From NCBI GenBank assembly GCA_903893925.1, contig CAITOC010000047.1:1-48492 (forward strand): DNA of 48,492 nucleotides. Direction: 5' to 3'. Origin of the DNA: Candidatus Moraniibacteriota bacterium (GTDB lineage: Bacteria; Patescibacteriota; Minisyncoccia; Moranbacterales; UBA1568). Both the position numbers and the translations under genes were made by a program. The notes beneath the pieces were generated by a model that did not search any database, was not told the origin of the DNA, and was given only the letters and a program-made list of their open reading frames with translations. This document shows, piece after piece, positions 12,239 to 31,037 of the stretch (the first letter of the stretch is position 1; the number at the start of each line of letters is the position of its first letter).

Positions 12239-13975
12239 TCATCTGAACAATGAGCGCCAGGTGCGCAGTTTCGAGATGTCGGACATCACTACGGACCGCT
12301 TCTGGTCCGCATCGGACTGGCGTGTCCCGACGATCACTTTTTCGAGCGGTTTGAAAAAAGTCACGGTCAGTGCGCCGAAAGGTCTCTGTTCGAGAATCGT
12401 GAACTTCGAATCCGTGCCGAAGGAATCGTCGGCATAGCGGATATCGAAATAGTTTCCTTCGACGTAGAGCGACGAATCGCGTATCTCGTCGTGGTACCGG
12501 ATGCCACGGCGTTCCAGGAGAGCCCAGAATACGGGTTCGTATTCTGGCTTCGCGTTTATATAGACCGGATAGCCGTTCGCATCGTGTTTCGACGCGATGT
12601 AATCGACAATGAGTCGTTGCTCCCCAAACGTGATGCGGTTCGTGTTCGGGAAGATATCGCCCATCTCGATCTCGCCACGCGTCGTCGGGGCGGTGTCGTC
12701 TTGGAGTCGGGAAAACACTGGGAAAATGGCCTGCATATTAAGACCGACCAGAGTCAGTATGACGATACTGAACGCTACGAGGCGTACGCGACTCTTTTCG
12801 GGACCGACAAGCGTCAGGACAAATCCGTACAGCAGGATCGAAAGCGGGGCGATCAGGAGGAAGAATCTCGGATACATCCGGTAGCCGTCCGCGATGGTGT
12901 AGATGAGATAAAAGGAAACCGCAAGCCACAACAGAATTAAAATGAGAAAATTCTTTCGGTCGGCATCATGCTCTCTGAAAATCCGTACGATCAAGATAAC
13001 TGATCCGGAAAGAACCAGCGCGAGTGCGAGGATTTTCAGACCGAAGCTGTCGCCGTACGCTCCGGGTTCGAACCCATAATCTTTCAGTTTTATCCCGTTG
13101 ATGAGGTCTCTTCCGGTATTGATGAAAAAGGATTCGTAAGCGCCGTACTCGACGGTCTGGACCAGGGTGTCCGGCATGATGAAACTTCCCGGACTCGTCT
13201 TGGCGAACTTCTCTTTCAGGTAGTGGAGATTCTCGCGGTTCGTAACGATATCGTTCGCGATGACGGGGGAATAGATGATGAGGACGATTGCCAGGGCTGC
13301 GACCCAGACCTTCCAATGGAATCGTGGCCGACTGATTGCCGTGAATATGACCGCGACGAGTGGCACCACGAGAAACGAATTGAAATGAATCTGTGACGTG
13401 AGAGTGACTGCACCGACGGAAAAGAGAAACCATCTTGCGGAATATCGCTCTTTTCGGGAAACGCCCCGGAGGAGTGTATAGAAGGAGAGGAGGATCAAAA
13501 ACGGGAGTACGTTCGGACTCCAAGAGAACCGTGAGTACATGACGAGGTAGAGCGAGGAGGAGAAGACAGCCAGAAGGCCGACTGATTCGGTCCGGGAGAA
13601 ATACCGTCTGCAAAAAAGATAGAAGAGTGGCATCGACAGGATCGACAGGATAAGGACATTCATCGCATGTCCGGTCGGCGTATTGCCGAAGACGGTTGCG
13701 GCGACATACTCCATATAATAGAACGCCGGACCAAGCCGCAGGAGGCCACCACCGACATTCGGGCCGAGAAGCGGTAGATCGAGTGGGGAATGGCCGACCG
13801 CGGGAGAGACGAGATCGTAGTCAAATGCCTGGTCCAGTTCGAAATGGAGCCAGTCGGAAAAGTGATAGGTACGTAAAAACACTCCCGCACACACGACGAG
13901 TGAGATGACGAGTACATCTCGCCAGTTTGCGTTTATGTTTCGGAACAGTCTTTCTCGGACCGATGAGAGAGGCAT
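12239..13975 (-). CDS. GT39/PMT-like GT-C glycosyltransferase, array family member A (divergent)
   Basis: A 578-aa membrane protein of the same family as the plus-strand array (16951-31037). Shared features: GVFLRTYHFSDWLHF (31-45), LGPAFYYMEY, LYLVMYSRFSWSPNVLPF and the C-terminal domain opening ITFGEQRLIVDYIASKH. The active-site segment is DQAFDYD (48-54), so the Arg of the D-Q-x-R-D signature is Phe here. The exoplasmic loop lacks the Cys pair seen in most relatives. It is predicted to transfer a sugar from a polyprenyl-P donor outside the membrane. It is upstream of GH28 by 10 nt and downstream of the gene at 13980 by 4 nt. This is the most divergent member and sits apart from the array on the opposite strand. 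Confidence 0.8.
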   Translation of the reverse strand: MPLSSVRERLFRNINANWRDVLVISLVVCAGVFLRTYHFSDWLHFELDQAFDYDLVSPAVGHSPLDLPLLGPNVGGGLLRLGPAFYYMEYVAATVFGNTPTGHAMNVLILSILSMPLFYLFCRRYFSRTESVGLLAVFSSSLYLVMYSRFSWSPNVLPFLILLSFYTLLRGVSRKERYSARWFLFSVGAVTLTSQIHFNSFLVVPLVAVIFTAISRPRFHWKVWVAALAIVLIIYSPVIANDIVTNRENLHYLKEKFAKTSPGSFIMPDTLVQTVEYGAYESFFINTGRDLINGIKLKDYGFEPGAYGDSFGLKILALALVLSGSVILIVRIFREHDADRKNFLILILLWLAVSFYLIYTIADGYRMYPRFFLLIAPLSILLYGFVLTLVGPEKSRVRLVAFSIVILTLVGLNMQAIFPVFSRLQDDTAPTTRGEIEMGDIFPNTNRITFGEQRLIVDYIASKHDANGYPVYINAKPEYEPVFWALLERRGIRYHDEIRDSSLYVEGNYFDIRYADDSFGTDSKFTILEQRPFGALTVTFFKPLEKVIVGTRQSDADQKRSVVMSDISKLRTWRSLFR

Positions 13976-13979
13976 ACGT

Positions 13980-15824
13980 TTACTCGTTGGCGATGGCGGA
14001 TGCCCGGATGATCTTCACGAAATTATTCGGTCGCCCACCAATGACGACCTCATGTTCGTAAGCAATCGTGTCACTGTACACTTTCTTGAAGTTGATGATA
14101 CTGCTTACCGAGCCGGAGAGTTTCAGCGAGCGACCTTGTCGGCCGATCGAGACGACGAAATAATCGTACGTTTTTCCTTCGAGGTCCTTTTTGCTGAATC
14201 CGATATTACAGGTCCCGACGAATTCGGTGCAGACCGCTCCCTTGTCCGACCAGACGACCAGATTACGGGCATTCGGAAGCGAATTGAGATACGCTGCGGC
14301 CTCGAAGCTCCCGTCGCCCATATCCTTGGTATTGAGGAGGTATTGTGTGGGAAGGAATGCCGAGGCGTATGCGAAATAGAACGGTCGGAGGTAGAGCAGT
14401 GATGCAGCGAGGATAATGATACACGCGAGTGTCGCCGGCAGAGGCTTGACGAAGCGCTTGACCCGATCAATGGACAATACCTCGGCGGCTCCTATCGCTG
14501 CGATGATGAACGCCAGCGGATAGAGGATAATTTGGTAGCGGACGGTCGCGACCACGTCGTTGACGGTAGACGCCAGGTAGTAGAGGAGTATGAAGAGTGA
14601 GAAGGAGATGACCGTTCTCGTTTTCAATGTCATGGGGGTACCGCGGCGGACAGCGGTGAGGAGTCCGACGATGAAGAGAATGAGGAGTATCGGGTGTAGG
14701 CCGAATATCAGGCTGTATGCATTCGCTGTCAGCGCACCGAGAAAGGCAAGCAGGACACCGTGATCATTTATGCCGATGCCTTTCGGGGACGAGAGGATGC
14801 CTTCGAGGTCGAACGGCTTCATACCGAGATAGGTGTCGGCCATGGCAAATAAGATGAGCCCGATAAGGACGGATATCAGTGTTGTTGCCAGCACCCGTTT
14901 GTACTTCGAGAAGAACCGGAGTATCGGACCGATGATTTGGGCGCCGAGGGCGGTGACATCGAGGGCGATGAAGGCGACTAAGCCGGCAAAAATCGGCCAC
15001 GTCTTTTGGAAGGCCTTGCTTCCGAAGGTACCGTCGAGCAAAACATTTGGGTGCGCCCAGGTGGCCGGATAGAGCGCATAGAAGGTCACCATGGAAATCG
15101 CGATGATGGCGAGGTAATTCACGAATGATTTTTTCAGGTACGCTTTCAATTCCGGTTTTTCATCAGCGAGGATATAGTCGAGGAACGGAAGGATGAGGAA
15201 GAAGACATAGAGGATGTTTGCGACATACTTCGTCAGAAGCGAGAGACCGAGGAATACGCCGGTCGTGACGAGAAAAATATTTTCACCCTTCTTCTGGAAG
15301 GTGAGATAACTGAGGAGGGACAAGGGGAGAAATATCCAGAGGAGTGAATCGGGATTGATAATGAGCGAGATTCCGAGCAGGATCGGCGACAGGCCGATGA
15401 ACACGAACCCGAGGAGTGCCGTCTTTTTTCCGAAGAGTTTGTTGAGGAAAAAGGAGAAGGCGGGGAGCATGAACGTGCAGAAGAGGAAAATCGGGAGACG
15501 GAAAGAATAATTGATTCCGTCGATATCGGCGAGTTGGGCGTCCGTCTTGATGCCACCGCGTATATCCTTGGAAAGCATCGGATCGTACTTCAGCAGGCCG
15601 AACCCGGACAAGAGCGCGACGGTGATACCAGGCTTGTCATTGATATTGGTCGATCGCCATTTCTGTTCGGCGACGGCGGTCCAGAATTTCGAGGTCCGCC
15701 CGTAGGTCCAATAGGGCTCGTCGACCGCCGAATAGGTGCTGAGTCGGGGAATGCCGAGGAACAGGTTCAATCCGATGACGAAGAAAATGACGGTTGGTGC
15801 GAAATACTTTCTGAACGTTTTCAT
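13980..15824 (-). CDS. ArnT/PMT-type (GT39) membrane glycosyltransferase, distinct from the array
   Basis: A 614-aa polytopic enzyme with the classic first-loop acidic pair in STYSAVDEPYW (D35-E36), then NINDKPGITVALLSGFG, PDSLLWIFLPLSLLSYL and LLTKYVANILYVFF, all typical of phospholipid-carrier-dependent PMT_2 glycosyltransferases. The C-terminal ~130 residues form a soluble domain after the last helices (LLNTKDMGDGSFEAAAYL). It lacks the FLRTY-DWL signature of the eight array paralogues, so it is a separate subfamily. ATG 15824 is first in the minus-strand run ALG10-GH28-GT39, behind a good promoter at 15870-15897. Donor and acceptor unknown. Confidence 0.82.
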   Translation of the reverse strand: MKTFRKYFAPTVIFFVIGLNLFLGIPRLSTYSAVDEPYWTYGRTSKFWTAVAEQKWRSTNINDKPGITVALLSGFGLLKYDPMLSKDIRGGIKTDAQLADIDGINYSFRLPIFLFCTFMLPAFSFFLNKLFGKKTALLGFVFIGLSPILLGISLIINPDSLLWIFLPLSLLSYLTFQKKGENIFLVTTGVFLGLSLLTKYVANILYVFFLILPFLDYILADEKPELKAYLKKSFVNYLAIIAISMVTFYALYPATWAHPNVLLDGTFGSKAFQKTWPIFAGLVAFIALDVTALGAQIIGPILRFFSKYKRVLATTLISVLIGLILFAMADTYLGMKPFDLEGILSSPKGIGINDHGVLLAFLGALTANAYSLIFGLHPILLILFIVGLLTAVRRGTPMTLKTRTVISFSLFILLYYLASTVNDVVATVRYQIILYPLAFIIAAIGAAEVLSIDRVKRFVKPLPATLACIIILAASLLYLRPFYFAYASAFLPTQYLLNTKDMGDGSFEAAAYLNSLPNARNLVVWSDKGAVCTEFVGTCNIGFSKKDLEGKTYDYFVVSIGRQGRSLKLSGSVSSIINFKKVYSDTIAYEHEVVIGGRPNNFVKIIRASAIANE

Positions 15825-15869
15825 GATGAAGCGTTAAGGATAAATTCACATGAGACCGATATCATATAT

Positions 15870-15964: not shown

Positions 15965-16918
15965 GTGGAAAAGAATACCCTAAAAATGTGGGAAACGGTC
16001 AAACGATCGTGTATCGTTGGCTTTCAAAAATATCGGGCCACACTCTTCGTCGTGGTGTTTTTGTTTTGCACATTCTTCGTTCGGATATATCACATTGCCG
16101 GTCAGTGGTCTGTTGAGATGGGCAACCCGAAGGATTCTTTGGTCGTTCTTGATTCGACAGATTTCCTGAAACGGTATGTCCCCGGTTTCAGGGTCGAAGG
16201 ATATGCGCGGGAGGGAGAGAAAATCGGTTGGATCACGGATATCCATGCGGATCGATTCAAACGACGGACCGTCGAAAGCGGAACGATATATCCCAGGCAG
16301 TATGAAGAGTATGTGCCGAAGGTTTTTGATGCCCTGCGTTCGCAGGGGATAGATACGGTTGTCACGACGGGTGACAATGTCAATTCCGGCGATTCCAATT
16401 ACAGCCGTGCCTTGGAGAAGATTGCTGAGGAAAAACACATGCGGGTGATCTGGACGATCGGAAACCATGACCGCGAGTCGACGATGGCTGATTTTGGCGT
16501 AACCGGGAAGATGTATTATTATACCGACTATGGGAACACGAGGATTATTTCGATTGATGACGTTGACTTTAATAGGGAATCATGGGATTACGTGGGCGGG
16601 ATAGACAGTGAACAGTTGTCGTGGCTTCAGGAGGCGCTTCAGACTGACAAGCGCGTCATTATCGCCATGCATATCCCGATATTTCCGTCATCGCTCGAAT
16701 CTGTGGTGGTAGATCGCTATGCCGCATTCGAGAATCTTGTCCGTGAAAGCGGTGCCGTGAAATTGGTGCTCTCCGGACATTTCCATATTCCATGGCAGAA
16801 GGAGTTTGACGGGATTCCGTATTATGGTGAGGCAGCGCTGTCACGTGACGAGTATAAGGGAGCATACGGAGTGATCGATCTTGGAAAGGATACGGTTCAG
16901 TACCTTTTTGCGAAATAG
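15965..16918 (+). CDS. Membrane-anchored calcineurin-like metallophosphoesterase
   Basis: A 317-aa protein with one N-terminal membrane helix (LFVVVFLFCTFFVRIYHI, about residues 27-44), so the catalytic domain probably faces outside. All five metal-binding motifs are intact: D-x-H in ITDIHAD (90-96), GDN (136-138), GNHD (166-169), MHIP near 235, and GHFH (271-274). Such enzymes hydrolyse phosphodiester or pyrophosphate bonds. At the head of a GT-C operon it may recycle polyprenyl phosphate or cleave lipid-linked intermediates (inference). The track starts at GTG 15965. ATG 15986 (MWETVK), preceded by GGAAAAG, is an alternative. Divergently transcribed from the GT39-GH28-ALG10 operon. Confidence 0.87.
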   Translation: MEKNTLKMWETVKRSCIVGFQKYRATLFVVVFLFCTFFVRIYHIAGQWSVEMGNPKDSLVVLDSTDFLKRYVPGFRVEGYAREGEKIGWITDIHADRFKRRTVESGTIYPRQYEEYVPKVFDALRSQGIDTVVTTGDNVNSGDSNYSRALEKIAEEKHMRVIWTIGNHDRESTMADFGVTGKMYYYTDYGNTRIISIDDVDFNRESWDYVGGIDSEQLSWLQEALQTDKRVIIAMHIPIFPSSLESVVVDRYAAFENLVRESGAVKLVLSGHFHIPWQKEFDGIPYYGEAALSRDEYKGAYGVIDLGKDTVQYLFAK

Positions 16919-17016
16919 AACGAGCACTTGGGGAACATCACTTCGATTTTTTGTTTGCGATCTGGAAAAATGGTTCAGGGCGTTTATCGTATAAAGAAGA
17001 TGTAAAGCCGACTGCT

Positions 17017-18768
17017 ATGCGAAAAGTACTCAAATGGTTTGCTAACAACTACGCATTGCTCGTACTCACCGTCATTGTCGGCGTTTCGATATTCGTGCGC
17101 ACGTATCATTTCGACGACTGGCTGTATTTCAAGATGGATCAGTCTCGCGATGCGATTCTGATGAGCAATGCGGTGGAAAACGGTCCGCAGTACCTCCCAC
17201 TTCTCGGTGCACGCGCCGGTGCGGTCAAGCTCAAACACGGATTTCTCCGCCTCGGCCCGATTTTTTATTATTTCCAGTATCTGTCCGGCGTCATCTTCCA
17301 TTCGACACAGCCGTACGTGTACGCATATCCGGATCTACTGTTCTCCATCCTCGCGATACCGCTCCTCTATCTTCTCGTGCGGTTGTATTTCAGTAAGAGA
17401 AACGCTCTTTTGGTGACGGCGATGTATGCGTTCTCGTTCATCATCATCCAGTATTCGCGGTTCGCGTGGAATCCGAACTCGTTGCAATTTTTCCAGTTGG
17501 TGAGTTTCTATGGGCTACTCCGATTTCTGAACGAACCAATCGAGAAACGGAAAAAATGGTGGATGGCGATGTGGGCGACCGGCATGACGATCGGTTCGCA
17601 GCTACACTTCTTTGGCTTCTTCAGTCTCGTCGGGATTTCGGGGCTTCTCTTTATCTTTCATTTCGAGTTGTGGAAGAAGGAGCATATTCAGGCCTGTTTG
17701 CATAAGGACGCACTGAAAAAGATTGCGATCTATGCCGGCATCGCCGTATTGGTCTTCTCATTCTTCTATGCCCCTGTTTTCATCAGTGAGTCCATGCGCG
17801 GTGGGCAAAACTCAAAAAATTTTATTGAGGCACTCGGTTCGAAGCCTGCAGCCAAACCGCTTTCCGACAAGCTCGTGAAGACGGTGACGGAAAACATCAA
17901 ATACTACTGCCTGGTTACGACCTCACAGTGCTATGGGAGTAGCATGAAAAACGAGCTTCCCGCCCTGTCCGTGACGGCGCTCATACTCCTTGCCGGCGCG
18001 TTCCTGGCCATCCGGTCGCTCCGTGACAAGACGAGGTCCGTCGTCGCGCGGGACTTCCTTTTTCTACTCATTGCCTGGGTGGCGGTGTTCACCATATTGA
18101 CCGTGCCGGTCTCTTTTCAACTCCGTCCACGGTTTTTTATCGTCGTGTTTGCGATTCCATTCATTTTCGTCGGCCTGATAGCGGAGTATCTCGATTCTCG
18201 ACTCAAGCGTGGTTCGGCACTCGCGATCGCCTTGTTGCTCGCCGGTGGCATCGTCGGGTGGAATACGCACGGGACCTCCGCGTGGTTCAAGGAGCAGGAA
18301 AAATCGCAGAAGAGCGCGTTAATCGTGAAGCGGACGCTCATCCTCAAGGCCAAGGACGGGGTGACTTTGGGGGAACTGCAGGGCGTGACCGATTGGATGT
18401 ATGCGAGGCATGAATCAGGGAAGACACTTTACTACTATGTGAAGCCGGAACACGTGCGACCGATCGACTATCTGCTTTCTTCCAAACATGATGCCGGACT
18501 CTCTTTCGCTACCATGACGAACAAGACCGACTCGGAGGCTCAGTTTTTCGCGGTGACGCCGACCAAAAGCGGACTCGCTCCCGTGACGAAGAAATTTGGT
18601 GTCAACATAACCGCTCTCAGCTCGCAGCAGTTCGGTCAATTGACAGTATATGAGCTCAGTTTTCCGGATCGTATCATCGAATCGAGTTCTAAGGTCAAAA
18701 AGACGAATGCAGAGCCGGACAGGGTTTTTTGGAAGGATGTGTTCACTTTCAAATCTGCCAAGAAATGA
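17017..18768 (+). CDS. GT39/PMT-like GT-C glycosyltransferase, array family member B
   Basis: A 583-aa polytopic enzyme, first of the plus-strand array. Signature: FVRTYHFDDWLYFKMDQSRDA, with D41-Q42 and R44-D45 in the predicted active-site loop. Then HGFLRLGPIFYYFQYLSG, YAYPDLLFSILAIPLLY, IQYSRFAWNPNSLQFF and GSQLHFFGFF. The Cys pair in the exoplasmic loop is present but close-spaced (YYCLVTTSQCYG) compared with the other members. The C-terminal soluble domain begins TLGELQGVTDWMY and is longer than in its relatives. The track starts at TTG 16951; ATG 17017 (MRKVLKWF) matches its relatives and is chosen. It overlaps the next gene by ATGA. Donor is probably a polyprenyl-P-sugar. Confidence 0.83.
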   Translation: MRKVLKWFANNYALLVLTVIVGVSIFVRTYHFDDWLYFKMDQSRDAILMSNAVENGPQYLPLLGARAGAVKLKHGFLRLGPIFYYFQYLSGVIFHSTQPYVYAYPDLLFSILAIPLLYLLVRLYFSKRNALLVTAMYAFSFIIIQYSRFAWNPNSLQFFQLVSFYGLLRFLNEPIEKRKKWWMAMWATGMTIGSQLHFFGFFSLVGISGLLFIFHFELWKKEHIQACLHKDALKKIAIYAGIAVLVFSFFYAPVFISESMRGGQNSKNFIEALGSKPAAKPLSDKLVKTVTENIKYYCLVTTSQCYGSSMKNELPALSVTALILLAGAFLAIRSLRDKTRSVVARDFLFLLIAWVAVFTILTVPVSFQLRPRFFIVVFAIPFIFVGLIAEYLDSRLKRGSALAIALLLAGGIVGWNTHGTSAWFKEQEKSQKSALIVKRTLILKAKDGVTLGELQGVTDWMYARHESGKTLYYYVKPEHVRPIDYLLSSKHDAGLSFATMTNKTDSEAQFFAVTPTKSGLAPVTKKFGVNITALSSQQFGQLTVYELSFPDRIIESSSKVKKTNAEPDRVFWKDVFTFKSAKK

Positions 18769-20933
18769 TGAACCTGAATATGGTATCAAAGCGATTCAAG
18801 AGTCTCCCTCTTCATCACCCGACGAGTATCTCGGTGTTTTTGTATCTGATAATTACGCTCGTATTCACGTATCCGTTGATTGGGAACATCGGCAGTGAAA
18901 TCCCGCAAGGAAGAGGCGACGTTTATCAGGCCATGGCGAATATAGAGAGTCGTGTGGTAAGCGTGACGACGCTCAGCACGCCCGACAAGCTCGTTTTTTT
19001 CGCAAAAAATATCGGCGTTCATCTACCGTACGTGATTCTGAACCTGTTTTTCAACAAATACGTTTCCTATAATCTCCTGTTTCTCTCGAGTTTTGTCTTG
19101 AGTGCGTTGGGAGCGTATCTTCTCGCTTTTTATTTCACGAAAAACAGGTATGCCGCCTTTCTTGCGGGACTGATATACGCATTCTCGCCGTTTCACTTCT
19201 ATCAATCGACGGTGGTCAATCTCGGTACGATGCACCAGGAATGGATTCCCTTTCTCGTCTTGGTGTTTTTCAGGTTTTTCGAGAAGTTGGAAATCAGGTA
19301 TTTCGTGGCGGTTTCGATTTTCGCGTTCCTGATCGCTCTGAATGAACATCAGATGCTCGCTTTCTCCGTGTTGTTCATGGTTATGATAGCGGCATATAAG
19401 ATCTGGATCGATCGGAGCATCCTGAAAAACCGTAGATTTTGGGCATACGTGACTTGCTCCATCGTGCTCCTCGCCACCGTCGCTATTGGAATGTTCGGTG
19501 GGATGCTGAAAGTGGCTACTTCCGACAATAACTATCTGGATGCCGGAGAAAATGCCGCGAACAAATATTCCATCAAAGTGCTCGATCCGATCATGCCACC
19601 GGTCTTCCATTCGATCTGGGGCACTCTGAGCGTGAACATTCAGGAGGCTGTCCTCGGTGATTCCAACAGGGGGTCATACTTCATTGGACTATCGGTATTG
19701 GTGACGATCGTTTACTTCGCTTTCCGGGCACGGAAGAAACTCGTACCGGAAGCAGACGAGGTCACCTATCGCCATGATGTCGCGTTTTGGAGCATATCGT
19801 CACTCCTTTTTTATCTTTTTTCGCTCGGGAACTCGATTTCGATAGGGACATTCGTCATATATCTTCCTTACTATCTGATCTATCGGTTCCTTCCATTCTA
19901 TGAGAACATCCGTACGACCGGACGAATGTTCGTGTTCGTGATGTTGGGAATCTCGGTCCTGTTTTCCTACGGATTCATACAGTTGTTGAAAGAATTTCCG
20001 AAGAAAAAACTAGTGCTGACGGGAATTTTCTCTTTCGTCATACTTCTTGAATTTTGGGCCGCTCCCATAGCCATCATGTCCGTGTCGTATTCGCCCTTTT
20101 ACGATACGATCGCCAAGGATGCCGAACCGTACTCCCTGATCGAGATACCCGGCTCCACCAGCTATGAGTTCGCAAGCTATGCGATGATGACCGACGTCGT
20201 TCACAAGAAGGCGGTCCTCAACGGCATGCCGCTCGCCCGCAAGATCAGCGGTCAGTTCGATATGCAACAGGAGACCCCGATCATTAAACAGCTCCTGTAT
20301 ACGATTCCGAAAGGGAACGATCCGGATACGAAAGACATGACCGATATCCTGAAAGGATTCGACTGGTCACAGGCAAACGATATCCTGAATTATCACCATG
20401 TGCGCTATATCACGGTGAGCAAGCTCTACGCCACCGCGAAGGTACGCTCGCTTGCCGAAACATTCATCACGAATCATATCGCCGTCATGAGCCGGTATGA
20501 GGACCGGTACCTGATCGCCTACGAGGTCGTGAACACGGATCCGAAGGGATACTTCTTCTCGCTCGGAGTGAAGAATGATCAGATTTCGACCATGTTTTTG
20601 GGCGATGATTTGCAAAACTATCGCGAGATCGGGAACGGTGCCGGACTCAAGATCGTCGATATGGGATCCACACCCGAGACGCTGACGATACGGGTTCGCC
20701 TCAAGGGGGCCGTACCGGGACTGACGTTTGGGTCGGTGGGCGATACCGGTCAGACGGTTCTTCCGCTTGACTCGGACCTGAAGGAATATTCCTTCGTGAA
20801 AACGGTGCAACCAGGGGAGAATATCATTCCGTTTTCGGTCCACGATGCGTCTGGAACGCCGGTTTCGATCTCCACTACCAAAAAGAAACATCAGGCTGCG
20901 CTGGTCACCAATATCACCATTGAATCGAAATGA
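18765..20933 (+). CDS. Large GT-C-like membrane protein with C-terminal extracytoplasmic domain (YfhO-like architecture)
   Basis: A 722-aa protein that I cannot assign to a named family with certainty. About 12 hydrophobic helices fill residues 22-440. The first exoplasmic loop contains an acidic segment (GRGDVYQAMANIE, D52) where GT-C enzymes carry their catalytic acid. AGLIYAFSPFHFYQ and HQEWIPFLVLVFFRFFE follow, and then a soluble beta-rich C-terminus. This layout resembles YfhO-type and other GT-C proteins. It lacks the FLRTY/DWL signature of its neighbours. The track starts at TTG 18729; ATG 18765 overlaps the upstream stop by ATGA and is preferred. It is coupled to the following gene by another ATGA. 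It probably adds a different sugar or acts as an acceptor-side partner (inference). Confidence 0.65.
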   Translation: MMNLNMVSKRFKSLPLHHPTSISVFLYLIITLVFTYPLIGNIGSEIPQGRGDVYQAMANIESRVVSVTTLSTPDKLVFFAKNIGVHLPYVILNLFFNKYVSYNLLFLSSFVLSALGAYLLAFYFTKNRYAAFLAGLIYAFSPFHFYQSTVVNLGTMHQEWIPFLVLVFFRFFEKLEIRYFVAVSIFAFLIALNEHQMLAFSVLFMVMIAAYKIWIDRSILKNRRFWAYVTCSIVLLATVAIGMFGGMLKVATSDNNYLDAGENAANKYSIKVLDPIMPPVFHSIWGTLSVNIQEAVLGDSNRGSYFIGLSVLVTIVYFAFRARKKLVPEADEVTYRHDVAFWSISSLLFYLFSLGNSISIGTFVIYLPYYLIYRFLPFYENIRTTGRMFVFVMLGISVLFSYGFIQLLKEFPKKKLVLTGIFSFVILLEFWAAPIAIMSVSYSPFYDTIAKDAEPYSLIEIPGSTSYEFASYAMMTDVVHKKAVLNGMPLARKISGQFDMQQETPIIKQLLYTIPKGNDPDTKDMTDILKGFDWSQANDILNYHHVRYITVSKLYATAKVRSLAETFITNHIAVMSRYEDRYLIAYEVVNTDPKGYFFSLGVKNDQISTMFLGDDLQNYREIGNGAGLKIVDMGSTPETLTIRVRLKGAVPGLTFGSVGDTGQTVLPLDSDLKEYSFVKTVQPGENIIPFSVHDASGTPVSISTTKKKHQAALVTNITIESK

Positions 20934-22585: not shown

Positions 22586-24201
22586 ACGAACGAATACAAC
22601 GGATACTTCGATCGAAGCAGGCTCTGTGGTGTGTCGTCATCGTCGTGTTCGCGCTGGCAGTCTTCCTTCGTACGTACCGGTTCCATGACTGGCTCCATTT
22701 CGGTAACGATCAGGCTCGTGACGCCGCCTTGGTCGAGAACGTAGTAAAGAATAATGCTTCCTGGCCTCAGCTTGGGTCTTCGATGGGGAACACCGGCTTT
22801 CTCCTCGGTCCGTTCTACTATTATTTCCAGATCATCTCCGTGAAGCTCTTCGGGATCGGTCCCGATAAGTTAGCGTATCCCGACCTCCTCTTCAATTTGC
22901 TCTCCATCCCACTCCTCTATTTCTTCCTGAAACGGTATTTCAACAAAGGAATCGCCTTGTCTTTGACGGGGCTCTACGGCGTCTCGTATTATGCGATCGA
23001 ATATTCCCGGTTCGCCTGGAATCCGAATCCGATCCCATTCTTCGTCATCTTGTTCTTGTGGGCGCTCTGGGAATTCCTTCTCGACTTGGAGAAAACACGA
23101 TGGGTTTGGGTGATTGCGCTCGGTATCGCTCTTGGTATCGGTTCCCAGCTCCACGCCATATTGCTTCTGACGATGTTTGGCACGCTCGGGCCAGCCTTCT
23201 TGTTTTCTTTGAGGAAAAGCCGGAAGACAGCGAGTCGGTGGGCGGTAGTGTTTCTCATAGTTTTGGTAGCGAATACCGGGCAAATCATTCATGAGTATCA
23301 GCACGACTACGAGAACACGAAAATCTTCCTGAATTCGTTTTCCGACAAGTCTGATAATGGCGGAAACAAGCGATTTATTCGGAATTTTGAACTCGATACC
23401 GCTTGCACTGCTCAGGCCAATACGTTGATTCTTTCCTCGATGGGAAACAAGGAAAACTGCGACTTCCTTTATTCCAAGGCGCGTAATACTCGACCGGGAG
23501 CGAAATTACAGTTGCCAAGCAATACGCTTTCGCTTCTCGGCATCACTGGAAGTGCGTTGTTCTCCGTCTTCGGATATGGGATGCTCGCGTTTTTGACCTG
23601 GACGGAGACCGACCGGAAGCGAAGATTTTTCACCGGCATCATCCTTCTGTATTCGGTCGTATCCTTTTCAGTGATGCTGCCGATCATCGATCAGGCGCCG
23701 ATGCGCTATTTCATCCACGTGACATTCCTGCCGTTCGTTTTCCTCGGAGTGCTCTTCGAGAGTATGAGACGGAAGCATCCCAAGCGATTTATGGTGCCGG
23801 CGCTTCTTCTTTTGGCCGTACTTGCTGTTACGAACCTTTTTTCGATCCGCGACGAGGCGATAGCTCTCGCAAATAAGAACCGTGCCGACTCCGGATACCT
23901 CGTGCTCGATGAGGCACAGACTCTTGTCGACTTTATCGTCTCTCGTGCCGGAGGATCAAAGGAAGCGTACTTGTTCGGTGGGACGCGGTATTATTCGCCG
24001 TACAACAAAACGCTCGTCTATCTGGCCGCGAAGCAGGGATTGACGCTGAAACGGGGGATCGATATCGGTGCGGTCCCGGCTGACGTACATGCATTCTATG
24101 TGGGATCGAGCCTTGGGAAGAGCGCAGCGACAGAGATCGGTGGGATGGGATTTTCCGATCATCTCGATGTCGGACAAGTGGGGATGTATCAGGTCCGGTA
24201 A
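22582..24201 (+). CDS. GT39/PMT-like GT-C glycosyltransferase, array family member D
   Basis: A 539-aa paralogue. Signature FLRTYRFHDWLHFGNDQARDA (D43-Q44, R46-D47), FLLGPFYYYFQIISVKLFG, LAYPDLLFNLLSIPLLYFF, IEYSRFAWNPNPIPFF and GSQLHAILL. Cys pair: TACTAQANTL ... NKENCDF. The C-terminal domain opens LVLDEAQTLVDFIVS. ATG 22582 overlaps the previous stop (ATGA). The next gene follows after 11 nt. Predicted exoplasmic sugar transfer from a polyprenyl-P donor. The two ends are conserved with its neighbours and the C-terminal tail is the most variable part. Confidence 0.85.
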   Translation: MNERIQRILRSKQALWCVVIVVFALAVFLRTYRFHDWLHFGNDQARDAALVENVVKNNASWPQLGSSMGNTGFLLGPFYYYFQIISVKLFGIGPDKLAYPDLLFNLLSIPLLYFFLKRYFNKGIALSLTGLYGVSYYAIEYSRFAWNPNPIPFFVILFLWALWEFLLDLEKTRWVWVIALGIALGIGSQLHAILLLTMFGTLGPAFLFSLRKSRKTASRWAVVFLIVLVANTGQIIHEYQHDYENTKIFLNSFSDKSDNGGNKRFIRNFELDTACTAQANTLILSSMGNKENCDFLYSKARNTRPGAKLQLPSNTLSLLGITGSALFSVFGYGMLAFLTWTETDRKRRFFTGIILLYSVVSFSVMLPIIDQAPMRYFIHVTFLPFVFLGVLFESMRRKHPKRFMVPALLLLAVLAVTNLFSIRDEAIALANKNRADSGYLVLDEAQTLVDFIVSRAGGSKEAYLFGGTRYYSPYNKTLVYLAAKQGLTLKRGIDIGAVPADVHAFYVGSSLGKSAATEIGGMGFSDHLDVGQVGMYQVR

Positions 24202-24212
24202 ACGATACAGTT

Positions 24213-25844
24213 ATGAAGCCGTTATCGAAAAATACAACGTGGCCGTATCGTCACGTACTCATTCTGTTAGTCATCATCTTAGGAGGCGCTTTTCTTCGTA
24301 CCTACCGTCTCCACGACTGGCTGGAATTTCGGGGTGATCAGACGAGGGATGCGACCATCGTTGATACGGTGGTGAACGAAGGTTCGAAGTGGCCTCTCCT
24401 TGGTCCGAACATGAATCATACCGGGGATACCGAAGAAACCCGTTTCCATCTCGGTCCGATCTATTATGATTTTCAAATCATGTCGGCCAAGATTTTCGGA
24501 AGCAACCCGGATGTGTTAGCCTATCCCGATGTCATGTTCTGCATCCTGTCTATCCCGCTCCTGTACGCCGTCCTCAGGATATTGTTCGGGGCCAATCTCT
24601 CTCTCGGTCTCACGGGATTATATATGATTTCCCCATATATCGTCCATTATTCCCGTTATGCATGGAGTTCAAACTCGGTCCCGTTTCTCGTACTGCTCTT
24701 CCTTTATTCACTTTACAAATTTCAAAACGACGATGAAAAAACGGATTGGGTCTGGATCATCGGGCTTGGCTTCGCGTGGGGGGTCGGTTTTCAGATCCAT
24801 GCCATACTGATGGTTCTCTTTTCAACGGTTTCTCTCTTCGCATTTATCAGTTCGATGCAAAAGAATCCTGCAGTGTGGAGGCGATGGGCCGTAATAGGAA
24901 CTCTTTTCCTCATCTTGAACATGGGCCAGATCGCCTATGAGATGAAAACGAACTTTGGAAACACGAGGATATTTATCAATTATTTTTATCGTGACAAGAG
25001 TACTGAGATCCCGGTGAGCAAGTTGACGTTGTTGGAGAACGACCTCTCCTGCCATTTTGCGGCGAATTTCTTTTTTCTGACCTCGGCCGGTGAGGGCAAA
25101 TGCTTGTATGATTATTCGGAAATATTTTCGAGGGACCAAAAAATCGGTTTTGGACGGATGTTCAAAGCGGAATCCGGCAGGTTCGTCCTGATCATAAGCC
25201 TCCTGTTTTCCGTTATCGGGTATTCCTTGTTGATATGCCGTGCCAAAAATGAGGCTGTTGATGAAAAGAGGCGGTTTCTACGGCTTATGGTCTTGTACGC
25301 CGGTCTCGGATTTGTCATCATGGCGCCCCTTAGCAACGATGTTTTCAGCGATCTTCGATACTTCACCTTCGTCATATTCATGCCGTACCTTTTTCTCGGA
25401 TTCATCGTGAACGGTCTGTCTGAATGGTCTGCGAAATGGTATTCTGTCGTTGTCGTCGGCATAGTCTTCATCCTAATCGCATGGTTCGATATTTTTGGAA
25501 TTATAGAAGAAGCATCTGTGCTGAATGATGGGAATGGAATTTGTTCCCGTACGGCTATACTCGGTGAGTTGGAGCCGATAGCAGACTACGTCTCTTCGCA
25601 TGCGAATGGACGGACCTCTGTCTATTTGGATGGAGACTATATGATGATCAATTATATCATTTTTCCAATGAAGTTCCTGTTAGCGGAGCGGCACATCGAT
25701 GCGATCAAGTCCGGCGAAGAAAGCGGTGTCACAGCTTCTTCGGATACGCCGACGTTCTATGTGAGTTGCAAAGTATCGCCACAGCATATAAATGAGACCC
25801 AGAAGATCGGGCGCGCGTACGTGTATCCAATAGAGAATCGATGA
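24213..25844 (+). CDS. GT39/PMT-like GT-C glycosyltransferase, array family member E
   Basis: A 543-aa paralogue. Signature FLRTYRLHDWLEFRGDQTRDA (D42-Q43, R45-D46), RFHLGPIYYDFQIMSAKIFG, LAYPDVMFCILSIPLLY, VHYSRYAWSSNSVPFL and GFQIHAILM. Cys pair: DLSCHFAANFF ... EGKCLYDY. The C-terminal domain opens ILGELEPIADYVSSH. It ends just before repeat copy 3, which breaks the chain of overlapping genes. By motif it lies between member D and the closely related F/G pair. Confidence 0.85.
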   Translation: MKPLSKNTTWPYRHVLILLVIILGGAFLRTYRLHDWLEFRGDQTRDATIVDTVVNEGSKWPLLGPNMNHTGDTEETRFHLGPIYYDFQIMSAKIFGSNPDVLAYPDVMFCILSIPLLYAVLRILFGANLSLGLTGLYMISPYIVHYSRYAWSSNSVPFLVLLFLYSLYKFQNDDEKTDWVWIIGLGFAWGVGFQIHAILMVLFSTVSLFAFISSMQKNPAVWRRWAVIGTLFLILNMGQIAYEMKTNFGNTRIFINYFYRDKSTEIPVSKLTLLENDLSCHFAANFFFLTSAGEGKCLYDYSEIFSRDQKIGFGRMFKAESGRFVLIISLLFSVIGYSLLICRAKNEAVDEKRRFLRLMVLYAGLGFVIMAPLSNDVFSDLRYFTFVIFMPYLFLGFIVNGLSEWSAKWYSVVVVGIVFILIAWFDIFGIIEEASVLNDGNGICSRTAILGELEPIADYVSSHANGRTSVYLDGDYMMINYIIFPMKFLLAERHIDAIKSGEESGVTASSDTPTFYVSCKVSPQHINETQKIGRAYVYPIENR

Positions 25845-25870
25845 TGACGATTGTTCGCGAGTGAGCTTCT

Positions 25871-25976: not shown

Positions 25977-26000
25977 TGTCGAAAATAACTTGATCGTTGA

Positions 26001-26053
26001 ACATCGCTGCCGGAGAAGTTCGCCCCGAAAATGCTGGAGTAAACTCCCGATGT
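26001..26053. repeat. Bulged hairpin upstream of array member F
   Basis: ACATCG (26001-26006) pairs with CGATGT (26048-26053), and GGAG (26012-26015) with CTCC (26044-26047), leaving a 5-nt bulge on one side. The right arm abuts the -35 of the promoter for member F. The loop contains GTTCGCCCC, also seen in the hairpin core of repeat copy 5, so it may be a degenerate repeat relic. Confidence 0.35.
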
Positions 26054-26081
26054 GACAGTGTTTTCGTCAACGTGGTATTAT
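26052..26081 (+). promoter_or_regulatory. Promoter of the F-G-H cassette
   Basis: GTGACA (26052-26057), an 18-nt spacer and TATTAT (26076-26081), with AAGG just before ATG 26100. It gives the three-gene cassette its own transcription start after the operon break at repeat copy 3. The -35 overlaps the right arm of the preceding hairpin. Confidence 0.45.
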
Positions 26082-26099
26082 ACTGGTCCCAAGGTATGA

Positions 26100-27755
26100 A
26101 TGTCTATGAATACGAATGACTGTTCGAAGTTGAATATCCGGCGGATTCCGAAGCATATCTGGTTGCTCCTGTTGATTGTCTGCATCGGCGTGTTCTTGCG
26201 TACGTATCACTTCCACGACTGGCTGGAATTCAAGGGGGACCAGGCGCGCGACGCGAGCCTGGTCCAAGACGTGGTTGCGGGGAATGCCGAATGGCCCCTC
26301 ACGGGTCCCTTCATGTCCAATTCCGCCGCCAACAAGGACGAAACGTTCCATATCGGGCCTCTGTACTATTATTTTCAGATCGTTTCCGCACAAGTATTCG
26401 GCAATATCCCGGAATCATTGGCTTATCCCGATGTATTGTTCTCAATCCTTTCCTTACCGCTGTTCTACCTTTTCTTCAGGAAATACCTCGATCAGAAACT
26501 GTCTTTAGGCGTCACCTTCCTCTATGTGGTCTCCTTTTTTTTCGTGATGCATTCCCGGTTCGCGTGGAATTCCAATCTCATCCCGTGTTTCACCTTGCTC
26601 TTCCTCTTGTCCTTGTTCGAATTCGAATCGGGAGGAATCGCGGTCGGTTGGTTGTGGGCGGTCTTACTCGGTATCGCTCTTGGGGTCGGGGTGCAACTCC
26701 ATGCCATAACCATGATTATTTTTTCGGCCGTTACCGTCTTGTCAATCGGTCGTTCCATCTTCCGGAAACAATCGATCCCGTGGAAAAAATGGGCTGTGGT
26801 CTTCGCGGTGGCGCTCCTTTTGAATACGGGTCAGATTATCGGCGAAACGCAGACCGGCTTTTCCAATGCAAAGATATTCCTCGGTTACTTCACGAATACT
26901 CATCACGATACGTCCGCAAGCAATCAACCATGGAGCGACGCTCATGCGAGCCTCGTGAACGATATCGATTGCCATCTTGAGGCAAATCTCTATTTGTTTA
27001 CTTCCCTGGGTCAAGATCATTGTGTCTATTCCTTTGATGCCCTTTTGAGTGGGACGCGGAGAAATGCAATGAAAATTTTGTTTGAGACACCGCTGTTTTT
27101 CGGTGCCCTTTTCTCGATATTCGGTTTCGCCATGCTCGTGATCCGATGCGCTTCGGAAAAAGACGAGCGGAAGAGAATATGGCTTCGTATGATCGCCTGG
27201 TATATCGCTGTTTCGTTTTTGATCATGTTCCCCGTCGTCAAGGGGAGTCTGGAACTTCGGTATTTCAACTTTGCATTTTTTCTCCCATTCCTGTTCCTTG
27301 GGCTCCTTGCGGAACATGTGATGAGTCAAAAGAATACATGGCTTCTGTATACGGTTCTTTTGGCATTCCCGGCCATAGCCATGATCAATATCCTGTCATT
27401 GTCATCGGTGTATGACGAGCTCGTCCAAAAGGGCCGGATCTATTCACGCTCGGTCGTCCTCGATGAGATAGAACCGATAGCGACATACGTGGTCGCTCAT
27501 GCGGATGGACATACTACGATCTCTCTGTCAGGGAACTCCAAAATTTTGGATTATGCCTTTCATCCCCTAGTATATCTTGTCGCGCAATCCGGGAAGGAAC
27601 TCATCCGTGTCGGAGCCTCGAAAGTGGATGATGTGGCCCGTTCCGGACAGAAGGTATTCTTTGTGAGCACTACTCCTCCCGATCCGGCGGATGCTCCCGA
27701 GTATGGGGCGGTCGGAGAGAAGATATATGTATACGAGGTGAGAACGAACCAATGA
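26100..27755 (+). CDS. GT39/PMT-like GT-C glycosyltransferase, array family member F
   Basis: A 551-aa paralogue. Signature FLRTYHFHDWLEFKGDQARDA (D47-Q48, R50-D51), FHIGPLYYYFQIVSAQVFG, LAYPDVLFSILSLPLFY, HSRFAWNSNLIPCF and GVQLHAITM. Cys pair: IDCHLEANLYLF ... QDHCVYSF. The C-terminal domain opens VLDEIEPIATYVVAH. ATG 26100 has AAGG just upstream. It overlaps member G by ATGA. F and G are the most alike of the array by eye, including ASLVQDVV and the A-N/G-N..TSLG..C loop, consistent with a recent tandem duplication. Confidence 0.86.
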   Translation: MSMNTNDCSKLNIRRIPKHIWLLLLIVCIGVFLRTYHFHDWLEFKGDQARDASLVQDVVAGNAEWPLTGPFMSNSAANKDETFHIGPLYYYFQIVSAQVFGNIPESLAYPDVLFSILSLPLFYLFFRKYLDQKLSLGVTFLYVVSFFFVMHSRFAWNSNLIPCFTLLFLLSLFEFESGGIAVGWLWAVLLGIALGVGVQLHAITMIIFSAVTVLSIGRSIFRKQSIPWKKWAVVFAVALLLNTGQIIGETQTGFSNAKIFLGYFTNTHHDTSASNQPWSDAHASLVNDIDCHLEANLYLFTSLGQDHCVYSFDALLSGTRRNAMKILFETPLFFGALFSIFGFAMLVIRCASEKDERKRIWLRMIAWYIAVSFLIMFPVVKGSLELRYFNFAFFLPFLFLGLLAEHVMSQKNTWLLYTVLLAFPAIAMINILSLSSVYDELVQKGRIYSRSVVLDEIEPIATYVVAHADGHTTISLSGNSKILDYAFHPLVYLVAQSGKELIRVGASKVDDVARSGQKVFFVSTTPPDPADAPEYGAVGEKIYVYEVRTNQ

Positions 27756-29386
27756 ACGATCACAACACGAATACCGGCATACGATCTTGGGTGAGAAATA
27801 TCCCGAAAAGTGTCCTGATCCTGATCGGGATCATACTGGTCGGTATATTCCTGCGCACATACCGGTTCCACGACTGGCTGGAATTCAAGACCGACCAATC
27901 CCGGGATGCGAGCCTCGTCCAAGACGTGGTACGCCATGATGCGCCGTGGCCACTTTTGGGTCCGGCTATGGGGAATTATGCAACCGATGACGGTGCTCAT
28001 TTCCGGATCGGTCCGATATACTATTCTTTTCAGATCCTCTCCGCAAAGGTATTCGGCCCCACTCCCGACGCGTTGGCCTATCCCGATCTGTTCTTCTCGA
28101 TCCTGACGATCCCGCTCCTCTATTTTTTTCTCAGGAAAGCCTTTGCAGAGAAACTTTCTTTGTGGCTGACCGCTCTGTATACGGTTTCCTTTTTTGCCAT
28201 ACGGTATTCGCGGTTTGCCTGGAATTCCAACCTGATCCCGTTCTTCGTATTGCTCTTCCTTTTGTCCTTGTACGAATTTTGGATACGCCGGGAGCGGGTT
28301 TCGTGGTGGTGGGTCGGCGCACTCGGAGTAGCATTGGGTGTCGGAATCCAATTACATGTCATCACGCTCATACTCTTCTCGGGATTTTTTCTGTTCCTTG
28401 CCATCATCATGTCGATACGGTGGAAGGGGATTCGGTACAAGTTGCTTGCGGTTTGTACCCTGGCACTACTCCTCAACGCCGGTCAGATACGAAGCGAAGT
28501 AGAGACGAATTTCGCCAATGCGAGGATATTCCTTGGCTATTTTATGAAGAGCGACCAAATCGTCTCCCAAGACGAGACCGATGGTGGGCCGAGTATACTC
28601 AACGACGTCGACTGTCATATCCAGGGCAATTCCTATATGTTGACTTCGCTCGGAGAGGACAGTTGTTCGTATACGTTTGGGAGTCTACTCTCGGGAGAAA
28701 TGAACAAGAATGTTCGAAACTGGTTCTTTTGGGTGACGCTGGCGACGAGTCTCGCCTTCTCGGTTTTGGGATATGTCGTGCTTTTCAACCGAGCCCGCAA
28801 AGAGACGGATGCAGATAAGAGGGTCTGGTTCCTCCTTCTTGCCTCGTACCTGGCAGTCTCGTTTTTGGTCATGCTTCCCGTCATCAAGGGAAAAATCGAG
28901 CTTCGCTACTTCAGTTTTGCATTCTTTGCCCCCTTCCTTTTCCTCGGATTTTTGGTAGACTATCTGAAGTCGGCATTTCCGGGATCTTTCAAAGTCGTAG
29001 CGACTCTGCTCTTTTTGGTCATACTTTCGGCCAATACGGTTTCTCTGGTCGCGATGACTCAGGAACTTCTGGACAAGAACAGGCTGTTTTCGAACTCGGT
29101 CGTGCTCGATGAGATGGATCCGATTGTCAGTTACATGACGGAATATGCGTACGGAAATCATACCGTTTCCCTTGGTGGAGACTCCAGAATCGTGGATTTC
29201 GCATTCGCCCCGTTGCAGTACCTTTCGGAATCTCGGGGTATGACACTCGTGCGATCAGCAGATGAAGGCGTTGCATTTGCGTCTCGTAACGAGCGACCGT
29301 CGTTTTTCATCAATAACAAACAGAATTCGGCTACCGCTGTCGGATATCTGAAAATAGGCCAGAAACTCTATGTCCACCGATACTGA
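27752..29386 (+). CDS. GT39/PMT-like GT-C glycosyltransferase, array family member G
   Basis: A 544-aa paralogue, closest to member F. Signature FLRTYRFHDWLEFKTDQSRDA (D48-Q49, R51-D52), FRIGPIYYSFQILSAKVFG, LAYPDLFFSILTIPLLYFF, IRYSRFAWNSNLIPFF and GIQLHVITL. Cys pair: VDCHIQGNSYML ... EDSCSYTF. The C-terminal domain opens VLDEMDPIVSYMTEY. ATGA overlap upstream; it overlaps member H by 17 nt, so translation of the cassette is tightly linked. Confidence 0.86.
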   Translation: MNDHNTNTGIRSWVRNIPKSVLILIGIILVGIFLRTYRFHDWLEFKTDQSRDASLVQDVVRHDAPWPLLGPAMGNYATDDGAHFRIGPIYYSFQILSAKVFGPTPDALAYPDLFFSILTIPLLYFFLRKAFAEKLSLWLTALYTVSFFAIRYSRFAWNSNLIPFFVLLFLLSLYEFWIRRERVSWWWVGALGVALGVGIQLHVITLILFSGFFLFLAIIMSIRWKGIRYKLLAVCTLALLLNAGQIRSEVETNFANARIFLGYFMKSDQIVSQDETDGGPSILNDVDCHIQGNSYMLTSLGEDSCSYTFGSLLSGEMNKNVRNWFFWVTLATSLAFSVLGYVVLFNRARKETDADKRVWFLLLASYLAVSFLVMLPVIKGKIELRYFSFAFFAPFLFLGFLVDYLKSAFPGSFKVVATLLFLVILSANTVSLVAMTQELLDKNRLFSNSVVLDEMDPIVSYMTEYAYGNHTVSLGGDSRIVDFAFAPLQYLSESRGMTLVRSADEGVAFASRNERPSFFINNKQNSATAVGYLKIGQKLYVHRY

Positions 29387-31037
29387 ACATTCTCCGTCGG
29401 GACGCCTTGGCAGTCTCTGTGATTGGGTCCGGACGGTTCCGAAATTCATATGTATCCTCATCGGTATCGTGGCGGTCGGGATATTCCTCCGTGCCTACCA
29501 TTTCCACGACTGGCTACGATTCAATGCGGATCAGTCGCGTGATGCCGGAGTGGCGAGCGACTCTGTCCAGGGGACCGGCGCCTATCCCTTGCTTGGTCCG
29601 AAAGCCGGCGGAACCGAATTTAAGCTCGGCGGAGCGTTCTATTCGTTGCAGATCCTTTCCGCGCAGGTATTCGGAAACAGCCCCGACAAGATGGCCTATC
29701 CGGATCTGTTCGCGTCCATCGCGACGATCCCGCTCCTCTTCCTCCTCCTTCGTCGGGTATTCCGACAGCCGGTAGCGCTTCTTTTGACGGCCATTTTGTC
29801 CGTGAGCGTCTTCGCGATCAAATACGCCCGGTTTGCCTGGAATCCGAATTCCGGGCCATTTTATTCCATACTGTTCCTATATGCACTTCTCCTATTGGCC
29901 GAGGAACAGACAAAGCGGAGATGGCTCTGGGCGATAGTCGCCGGTGTCGGTCTTGGTATCGGTGTACAGTTACACACCCTGCTTCTGATCATCATGCCGG
30001 TCACCGTTTTTGGTTTTTTCATATTTATCGGGCGAAAGCGACCAACACTCTGGCGACAGGCCGGCATCGTCTTGCTCGTCGCGCTTGCGTTGAATACGGG
30101 ACAGATCGTGGAGATGAGACAGACGAACGGTTCGAATATCAAGGCGTTTTTCGGTGGAACCGCGAGTAAGACGGCCAAGGGACACTCTATTCTTGGGAAC
30201 GTTCTTGACGATGCGACTTGTCAGATACAAGGAGACACATTCATCGTGAGCGGACTCGGCAATGACGACCAGTGCGGTTCAGTCAGCATCTCCGACACGT
30301 ATCAGAAGACCAAAGGTATCGCGGGGAAACTCGCCTTCATGGCCGGGTTATTTTTGTCGGCGGTTTTCACCGTTGGTGGGGTGTGGCTATGGATAGTGGC
30401 TCTCAAGAACACGACCGAACCGAGGAGGAAACTCGCACTGCAACTCACCTTGTGGTACGCTCTGGTCGGATTCGTCCTACTCATCCCGCTTGCAAAAGAG
30501 ATCTCGCTTCGATTCTATCTGGCGATGCTCTTCGTCCCGTTTGTCTTGCTCGGACTCTGGGCGGAGGCCGTCATTTCGTGGGCGAAAGATCACCATACCT
30601 ATGCGTATATCGCTCTCGGTATCGTTACGCTCGTTTTTGTAGGGACGAACCTTTCTGCCGTCTCGATCGCGTTTTCCGATCATTCCGGCAGGAAACAGAT
30701 CGTCGGTTCGACCGATGCGGAGATCACCCTTGGGGAAGTCGAGGGGATGGCGAAGTATATAACAGAGCATTTCCAATCGGGTCAGACGATTTATGTCCGG
30801 GGAAAGCAGACCTATCTCTTCAAGTACCTGAAATCGATCGAATACGTCACTCTGAAGAGCGGTGTCGTCTTGAAGCCGTATTCCAAGAACATGATACCGT
30901 CAAAGGATGACCAGACCGTCCTCATCGCGAATGCCATAAACAAAGGCAAGCTTACGAAGTCGATGGCGGAGGCGTATGATCCCATCGATATCCGGATCTT
31001 CGGACGGTTCTCAATCGAACAAATCGTGCTTAAATAA
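29370..31037 (+). CDS. GT39/PMT-like GT-C glycosyltransferase, array family member H
   Basis: A 555-aa paralogue and the last of the array. Signature FLRAYHFHDWLRFNADQSRDA (D54-Q55, R57-D58), FKLGGAFYSLQILSAQVFG (LGG where the others have LGP), MAYPDLFASIATIPLLF, IKYARFAWNPNSGPFY and GVQLHTLLL. Cys pair: ATCQIQGDTFIV ... DDQCGSV. The C-terminal domain opens TLGEVEGMAKYITEH. The 17-nt overlap with member G supports ATG 29370. No clear terminator follows; repeat copy 4 does. Confidence 0.85.
   Translation: MSTDTEHSPSGRLGSLCDWVRTVPKFICILIGIVAVGIFLRAYHFHDWLRFNADQSRDAGVASDSVQGTGAYPLLGPKAGGTEFKLGGAFYSLQILSAQVFGNSPDKMAYPDLFASIATIPLLFLLLRRVFRQPVALLLTAILSVSVFAIKYARFAWNPNSGPFYSILFLYALLLLAEEQTKRRWLWAIVAGVGLGIGVQLHTLLLIIMPVTVFGFFIFIGRKRPTLWRQAGIVLLVALALNTGQIVEMRQTNGSNIKAFFGGTASKTAKGHSILGNVLDDATCQIQGDTFIVSGLGNDDQCGSVSISDTYQKTKGIAGKLAFMAGLFLSAVFTVGGVWLWIVALKNTTEPRRKLALQLTLWYALVGFVLLIPLAKEISLRFYLAMLFVPFVLLGLWAEAVISWAKDHHTYAYIALGIVTLVFVGTNLSAVSIAFSDHSGRKQIVGSTDAEITLGEVEGMAKYITEHFQSGQTIYVRGKQTYLFKYLKSIEYVTLKSGVVLKPYSKNMIPSKDDQTVLIANAINKGKLTKSMAEAYDPIDIRIFGRFSIEQIVLK

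Follow-up and report, generated by a model that had tools for sequence, protein, structure and literature searches.

The closest described relatives of the genes reported here are the aminoarabinose transferase ArnT, of glycosyltransferase (GT) family 83, and the GT39 enzymes Pmt1 and Pmt2 (PF02366), all within the GT-C clan. The catalytic aspartate of ArnT (D55), Pmt1 (D77) and PimE (D58) lies in the loop that follows the first transmembrane helix, TM1 (PMC7801869, PMC12041525). The GtrA/GtrB/Gtr and GT136 pentofuranose systems bring together at one locus a GT2 synthase, flippase candidates and one GT-C enzyme (PMC11127046). O-antigen and capsule loci are polymorphic, with a replaceable glycan cassette held between conserved flanks and a MOP flippase and Wzy_C nearby. 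GT-C enzymes that act in series, each adding one residue from a polyprenyl-phosphate sugar, are known from the ALG pathway (ALG3, 9, 12, 6, 8 and 10) and among the mycobacterial arabinan GT-Cs. Here we analyse a 48,492-nucleotide stretch of DNA (the window; contig CAITOC010000047.1 of assembly GCA_903893925.1, Candidatus Moraniibacteriota bacterium) that carries eight paralogous GT-C genes between positions 12,239 and 31,037. The source genome (G000) is a Moranbacteria genome of 1.18 Mb, 98% complete in 88 contigs, and the array of full-length GT-C enzymes takes up about 20 kb of these ~1.2 Mb. We conclude that the array is probably an ordered GT-C cassette, exchanged horizontally between lineages, for the assembly or decoration of a surface glycan outside the cytoplasm.

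An earlier note, made from the sequence alone, had placed eight related genes at these positions, and this was borne out. The eight homologous open reading frames are present (17017 is the first ATG of a frame that opens at 16951; genes are named by their first coordinate), align end to end and all match PMT_2 (PF13231) above its curated cut-off. Aligned over their full length to 22582, the members are 24-38% identical. Their independent Pfam E-values run from 7e-6 to 9e-12, and they score 1e-179 or better in a within-genome search with a profile itself built from the members; judged on these comparisons, chance is excluded as the source of the similarity. In the numbering of 22582, R30, Y32, D36-W37-L38, F40, D43, D47, G65, G76, Y80, R143, N149, Q189, H191, R375 and E444 are invariant in all eight. 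The signatures given in the note are less uniform: D-Q-x-R-D is literal in six members but reads D-E-A-R-D in 20930 and D-Q-A-F-D in 12239, and SRFAWNPN is literal in 17017 and 22582 and in no other. The six genes described as tandem and overlapping do form a run (20930-31037), with overlaps of 4, 4 and 17 bp at three of the five junctions but gaps of 11 and 255 bp at the other two. Another kind of membrane protein, encoded at 18768-20933, splits 17017 from this run.

An AlphaFold2 model of 22582, computed with 97 homologues as input (predicted local distance difference test, pLDDT, 93.7; predicted template modelling score, pTM, 0.93), supplied the structure prediction that the earlier note had proposed and gave a confident GT-C fold nearest to ArnT. 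Its best matches in the PDB were ArnT structures 5ezm (E 3e-7, probability 1.00) and 5f15, with a whole-chain template modelling (TM) score of ~0.53 at equal length, and all 18 matches at E <= 0.001 were GT-C enzymes (ArnT, oligosaccharyltransferases, AftA/AftB, ALG12 and PMTs). A C-terminal outer domain and an aspartate in the first outer loop, where ArnT has its catalytic one (PMC7801869), are shared with ArnT. By sequence, D43 of 22582 lies in the loop after TM1; D43, D47, G65 and H191 are invariant across the 97 homologues, which carry Q (96%) or E (4%) at position 44. The predicted fold and the first-loop aspartate together place the modelled member in the GT-C superfamily (GT-C_A class), and D43, from its position and invariance, is the putative catalytic base. 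In a member from another genome (G099, L092:6191-7822) the corresponding segment reads D-F-G-R-I-Q-A-R-D, with Ile at the otherwise invariant catalytic-position Asp, and this copy is possibly inactive. The signature Q is replaced in four members of subtype B2, which have D-A-F-R-D (L077:6847-8556, L080:6907-8688, L103:7933-9210 and L113:4839-6662).

Assignment within the superfamily is less specific than the GT39-like label of the earlier note. ArnT itself differs at ~14% identity, has D-E where the array has D-Q, and occurs as one copy per genome against the many of the array family; in the NCBIfam scan the ArnT equivalog model was unmatched, with weak matches to TIGR03663 and NF047440 far below cut-off. 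As for GT39, PF02366 is passed by three proteins of the cassette (13980, 17017 and 20930), of which 17017 and 20930 belong to the eight; the other six pass PMT_2 alone. No member has a Pfam match to the MIR or PMT C-terminal membrane domains. The loop-1 D-E motif of the PMTs (D77/E78 in 6p25) is D-Q in seven members and D-E in 20930 alone, and a profile of the eight reaches Pmt2 at E 0.009. Because six of the eight fail PF02366, the MIR and PMT C-terminal domains are absent and E is replaced by Q in seven, the family is not demonstrably GT39; with ArnT (GT83) as the closest fold match and the PMT-defining domains missing, that label is too specific. The GT-C architecture stands by fold, and the use of polyprenyl-phosphate sugars, also proposed in the note, agrees with the candidate donor synthases that the locus encodes.

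The phylogeny of the family was built from 136 members on 38 DNA stretches. Of the genomes compared below, G002, G003, G004 and G005 belong to the source's genus and G078 to another family. Clades starred in the tree pair the A, B, C, D and F proteins of the window with orthologues from G003 and G078. The subtypes are old, and orthologues of each occur in other genera and families. An origin of the three E copies by recent tandem duplication was rejected, and these too are old: 27752 pairs with a G003 gene, with 26100 further away, so that 26100, outside that pair, is not a recent duplicate. Among alignment columns that are conserved inside each subtype yet differ from one subtype to another, 41 and 39 rank highest and 42 comes shortly after, all beside D43; others lie at 192-195, past QxH, and at 371-376, around R375. 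Such columns would fit divergence in substrate choice. The claim of a set of distinct enzymes thus gains from old subtypes that carry specific residues beside the presumed catalytic Asp.

Gene order was conserved as well. Among 23 arrays with three or more genes, set against 20,000 within-array permutations, subtype B came first in 16 of the 19 arrays that contain it (permutation mean 4.4, maximum 13), and subtype F came last in 16 of the 19 that contain it (mean 4.5, maximum 12). Subtype A stands on the strand opposite to the run in eight B-led arrays.

Many related copies at one place could form a within-genome reservoir, as the earlier note suggested, in which gene conversion, deletion or promoter switching would vary the surface of a single strain. 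DNA identity among the window paralogues is 40-57%, and their longest identical aligned run, 24 nt, falls at the conserved catalytic motif. The best 150-nt windows scored near the range of the permutations, which a few pairs exceeded modestly at protein-conserved segments, and repeat finding among the window genes returned similarity centred on the motif only. In sliding 100-residue windows the nearest relative throughout A, B, C, D and F was an orthologue from another genome, never a window paralogue. The gene-conversion test proposed in the note found no tract among the window paralogues, whether by permutation of identical runs and windows, by repeat finding or by sliding scans for the nearest relative, and no invertible promoters were seen. 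Points in favour of such a reservoir are small phylogenetic shifts inside genes, as in subtype B, which is nearest to G078 over its first ~150 residues and to G003 over most of the remainder, and a palindromic repeat with ten copies in the genome, one of them inside the array. Selection, for which the note had likewise proposed a test, was gauged by pairwise dN/dS (nonsynonymous over synonymous rates) alone. The ratio lay at 0.05-0.17 for eleven close pairs; window-G003 pairs gave 0.11-0.15 at a dS of 1.6-2.4, near saturation. Values so far below 1 speak against positive selection, and on these estimates the array genes are under purifying selection. Since dN/dS is low and no conversion tract was found, shuffling inside the genome is unsupported and the reservoir reading, with window genes that pair with orthologues elsewhere, is very unlikely.

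What appears to generate diversity is instead the horizontal exchange of entire cassettes. The rpoB gene of the window genome is 95.2% identical to that of G003 and 75.6% to that of G078, whereas the array genes are nearly equidistant from the two (G003/G078: B 74.7/75.0%, C 62.6/59.7%, D 70.6/68.8%, F 62.9/61.0%). Genes 8322, 10612, 13980, 15965 and 18729 are 56-68% identical to G078 and those rightwards from 33089 33-56%. The 13980 protein, part of the cassette, is 67% identical to G003 and 68% to G078. The 10612 protein (68% and 61%), which seems to be membrane-anchored at its N terminus, accompanies the cassette. The 15965 metallophosphoesterase has a 56% identical homologue in G078 and no match at the corresponding G003 locus. 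In the subtype B tree the window and G003 group with G078 and not with the rest of their own family, and constraining that family to monophyly costs 50 log-likelihood units (approximately unbiased test, p-AU 0.0001). In G002, G004 and G005, other GT-C genes are enclosed by homologues of 33089 and 5421; the 33089 homologue marks the slot edge in G003 too. Differing cassettes thus occupy one slot between conserved flanks, as in polymorphic glycan loci. Near-equidistance, the conflict in the subtype B tree and slot replacement, taken together, are good evidence for a replaceable cassette, which appears to have moved horizontally between lineages. The GT2 synthase at 45829 is itself near-equidistant (54% to G003, 52% to G078), which its neighbours are not; exchange may therefore extend to donor synthases.

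Named relatives place the protein family in Candidatus Moranbacteria, and it is nearly confined to its order: in a class-wide sample, 18 of the 20 order genomes have it as against 8 of the 266 others, which rules out a set of separately widespread families. At least one member (E <= 1e-30) occurs in 112 of 131 order genomes, one or two in 67 and six or more in 16. Copy number, approximate in these assemblies, ranges from 0 to 12, so that a fixed number is ruled out and the variation expected in the earlier note is seen. The source genome is highest at 12, through four further members on contigs C26 (two), C10 and C12. Those on C26 (L094) form a second, partial array of subtypes N and Y, and the C12 copy (L096) is shortened and D-like; G078 also has a second D-Y pair, similar to this second array. 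Patchy copy number, copies that look broken in G053 and G118 and the lost catalytic Asp in one G099 copy could point to a redundant or decaying expansion, made of dosage duplicates or drifting non-functional remnants. Eight full-length open frames, the low dN/dS of close pairs, invariant active-site residues and subtypes kept apart across families make this extremely unlikely.

The genes around the array belong largely to glycan assembly (Table 1). The candidate synthase at 1951, by similarity, fills the GT2 position of the three-component systems, with near full-length matches to ArnC (9bhc, E 1e-43) and GtrB-like 5eke (E 1e-28), and 45829 matches the DPM synthase 5mlz at 9e-10. Flippase candidates, again by similarity, are the MOP protein and two LPG_synthase_TM proteins. 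GT4 and UDP-sugar dehydrogenase genes lie near the array. Five Wzy_C domains and no STT3 oligosaccharyltransferase were found in the source genome, which favours a polysaccharide or a Wzy_C-ligated glycan over N-glycosylation. Under another reading, PMT-like enzymes would each modify particular surface proteins, such as S-layer proteins or pilins, by O-glycosylation. The Pfam families are indeed named protein mannosyltransferases, PMT structures are among the fold matches and a Wzy_C-type O-linked protein ligase may be conceived; yet the eight carry no MIR or other PMT C-terminal domain, the best fold match modifies a glycolipid, the neighbours (MOP flippase, Wzy_C, GT4, UDP-sugar dehydrogenases) are polysaccharide genes and STT3 is missing, and we regard a protein O-glycosylation set as unlikely.

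Table 1. Features of the GT-C array and its surroundings in the window.
Position	Strand	Feature	Evidence
1951..2904	+	candidate GT2 polyprenyl-phosphate-sugar synthase (ArnC/GtrB-like)	structure matches
5421..6374	+	LPG_synthase_TM / flippase-like protein, left border of variable slot	PF03706 1e-30
8322..9257	+	LPG_synthase_TM / flippase-like protein	PF03706 2.5e-36, TIGR00374 above cut-off
9359..10615	-	DIE2/ALG10-like GT-C enzyme, adjoins array	PF04922 1.5e-34
10612..12228	-	GH28-like right-handed beta-helix protein	PF00295 3e-28
12239..13975	-	GT-C paralogue, subtype A (SDWLHFELDQAFD)	PF13231 4e-7; clade A; divergent from array
13980..15824	-	PMT/PMT_2 GT-C enzyme, cassette part outside DQxRD family	PF02366 2e-9
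15965..16918	+	calcineurin-like metallophosphoesterase, upstream of array	PF00149 1.5e-16
17017..18768	+	GT-C paralogue, subtype B (DDWLYFKMDQSRD), opens run	PF02366 5e-11
18768..20933	+	large multi-helix membrane protein between B and C, 721 residues	no recognised family
20930..22585	+	GT-C paralogue, subtype C (HDWLQFSPDEARD)	Pfam, alignment, tree
22582..24201	+	GT-C paralogue, subtype D (HDWLHFGNDQARD), modelled member	fold match ArnT 5ezm
24213..25844	+	GT-C paralogue, subtype E (DQTRD)	Pfam, alignment, tree
26100..27755	+	GT-C paralogue, subtype E (DQARD)	Pfam, alignment, tree
27752..29386	+	GT-C paralogue, subtype E (DQSRD)	Pfam, alignment, tree
29370..31037	+	GT-C paralogue, subtype F (HDWLRFNADQSRD), closes run	Pfam, alignment, tree
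33089..34561	-	MOP-type polysaccharide flippase, right border of variable slot	PF01943 8e-26
35409..36983	+	Wzy_C O-antigen ligase/polymerase-like protein	PF04932 1.4e-16
45829..46815	-	candidate GT2 polyprenyl-phosphate-sugar synthase (AglJ/DPM-like)	TIGR04182 1.6e-32, below cut-off

The membrane protein at 18768 had no match in Pfam, NCBIfam or the PDB; it is present in 7 of 25 genomes searched, and its structure model is of low confidence (pLDDT 60). The ALG10-family protein is present in the source genome and G003, is absent from the four other congeners and was found in 13 of 124 order genomes and none of 14 control genomes, often on a contig with a GT-C array. The palindrome mentioned above, 34 bp long (AGGAGTTCGACTCCCT..AGGGAGTCGAACTCCT), lies in the window at 25903-25936 and 23-56; its other copies are on contigs C10, C41, C50, C66, C82 and C84. 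Most copies sit within a shared element of ~100-150 bp with TTATACCRAA-like inverted ends, resembling a miniature inverted-repeat transposable element; one copy fills the 255-bp gap between array genes, and contig ends hold several more.

In the mechanism that we infer, the GT2 synthases of the locus (1951, 45829 and perhaps 460) would load sugars onto polyprenyl phosphate, and the flippase-like proteins would carry the charged lipids outward. Each GT-C paralogue, with the invariant first-loop aspartate (D43 of 22582) serving as catalytic base, would then pass one sugar from this donor to a growing glycan acceptor, so that a surface polysaccharide is built or decorated on the outer face of the cytoplasmic membrane. 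Ancient divergence, purifying selection and conserved order make it most likely that the subtypes form a fixed set whose enzymes differ in acceptor or linkage. Bacteria would differ from one another through whole cassettes gained, lost or swapped at a single chromosomal slot rather than through shuffled copies. We favour a fixed-set glycan cassette because the flanking parts resemble extracytoplasmic systems and because Wzy_C is present and STT3 absent.

Several points weigh against this reading. The assemblies are draft metagenome assemblies in which some copies are broken or cut at contig ends, hence the approximate copy numbers, and mis-binning of single contigs is possible. The permutation test counts arrays as independent though many are related, so its result measures conservation and gives no clean probability; the conserved order itself may stem from common operon descent instead of order of action. 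Subtype A is less nearly equidistant than the rest (67.9% to G003, 59.7% to G078), and rpoB is a single marker gene. The roles of the GT2 synthase, flippase and ligase rest on similarity.

Set beside the known systems, the locus resembles the three-component systems in its synthase, flippase candidates and GT-C enzymes, but has eight paralogues of ordered subtypes where those have one GT-C. O-antigen and capsule loci differ in that the variable part here is mainly outward-acting GT-C enzymes and not cytoplasmic GTs. A GT-C series with an ALG10-family protein next to it recalls the ALG pathway of the endoplasmic reticulum (ER) lumen, although the array is bacterial, clustered, exchanged as a unit and without STT3, and sequential action is here a proposal. 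On a bolder version, which we hold to be speculative and rather unlikely, up to a dozen GT-C subtypes would work as an ER-lumen-like line, each adding one sugar roughly in gene order from B to F with an ALG10-like cap, and the whole line would be traded between Moranbacteria families, altering surface identity towards hosts or phages.

We found no description of GT39 or glycosyltransferase arrays from Patescibacteria in the open-licence literature, where broader searches were judged by titles and abstracts. As far as that literature shows, the array brings GT-C components of known kinds into a new arrangement, ordered, subtype-rich and horizontally exchanged, within a reduced genome. Should the cassette set the surface glycan, it would provide a natural series of subtype-diverged enzymes for studying substrate choice by the GT-C fold, and would amount to a genome-readable 'serotype' for uncultured Patescibacteria, whose host attachment and phage exposure are poorly understood.

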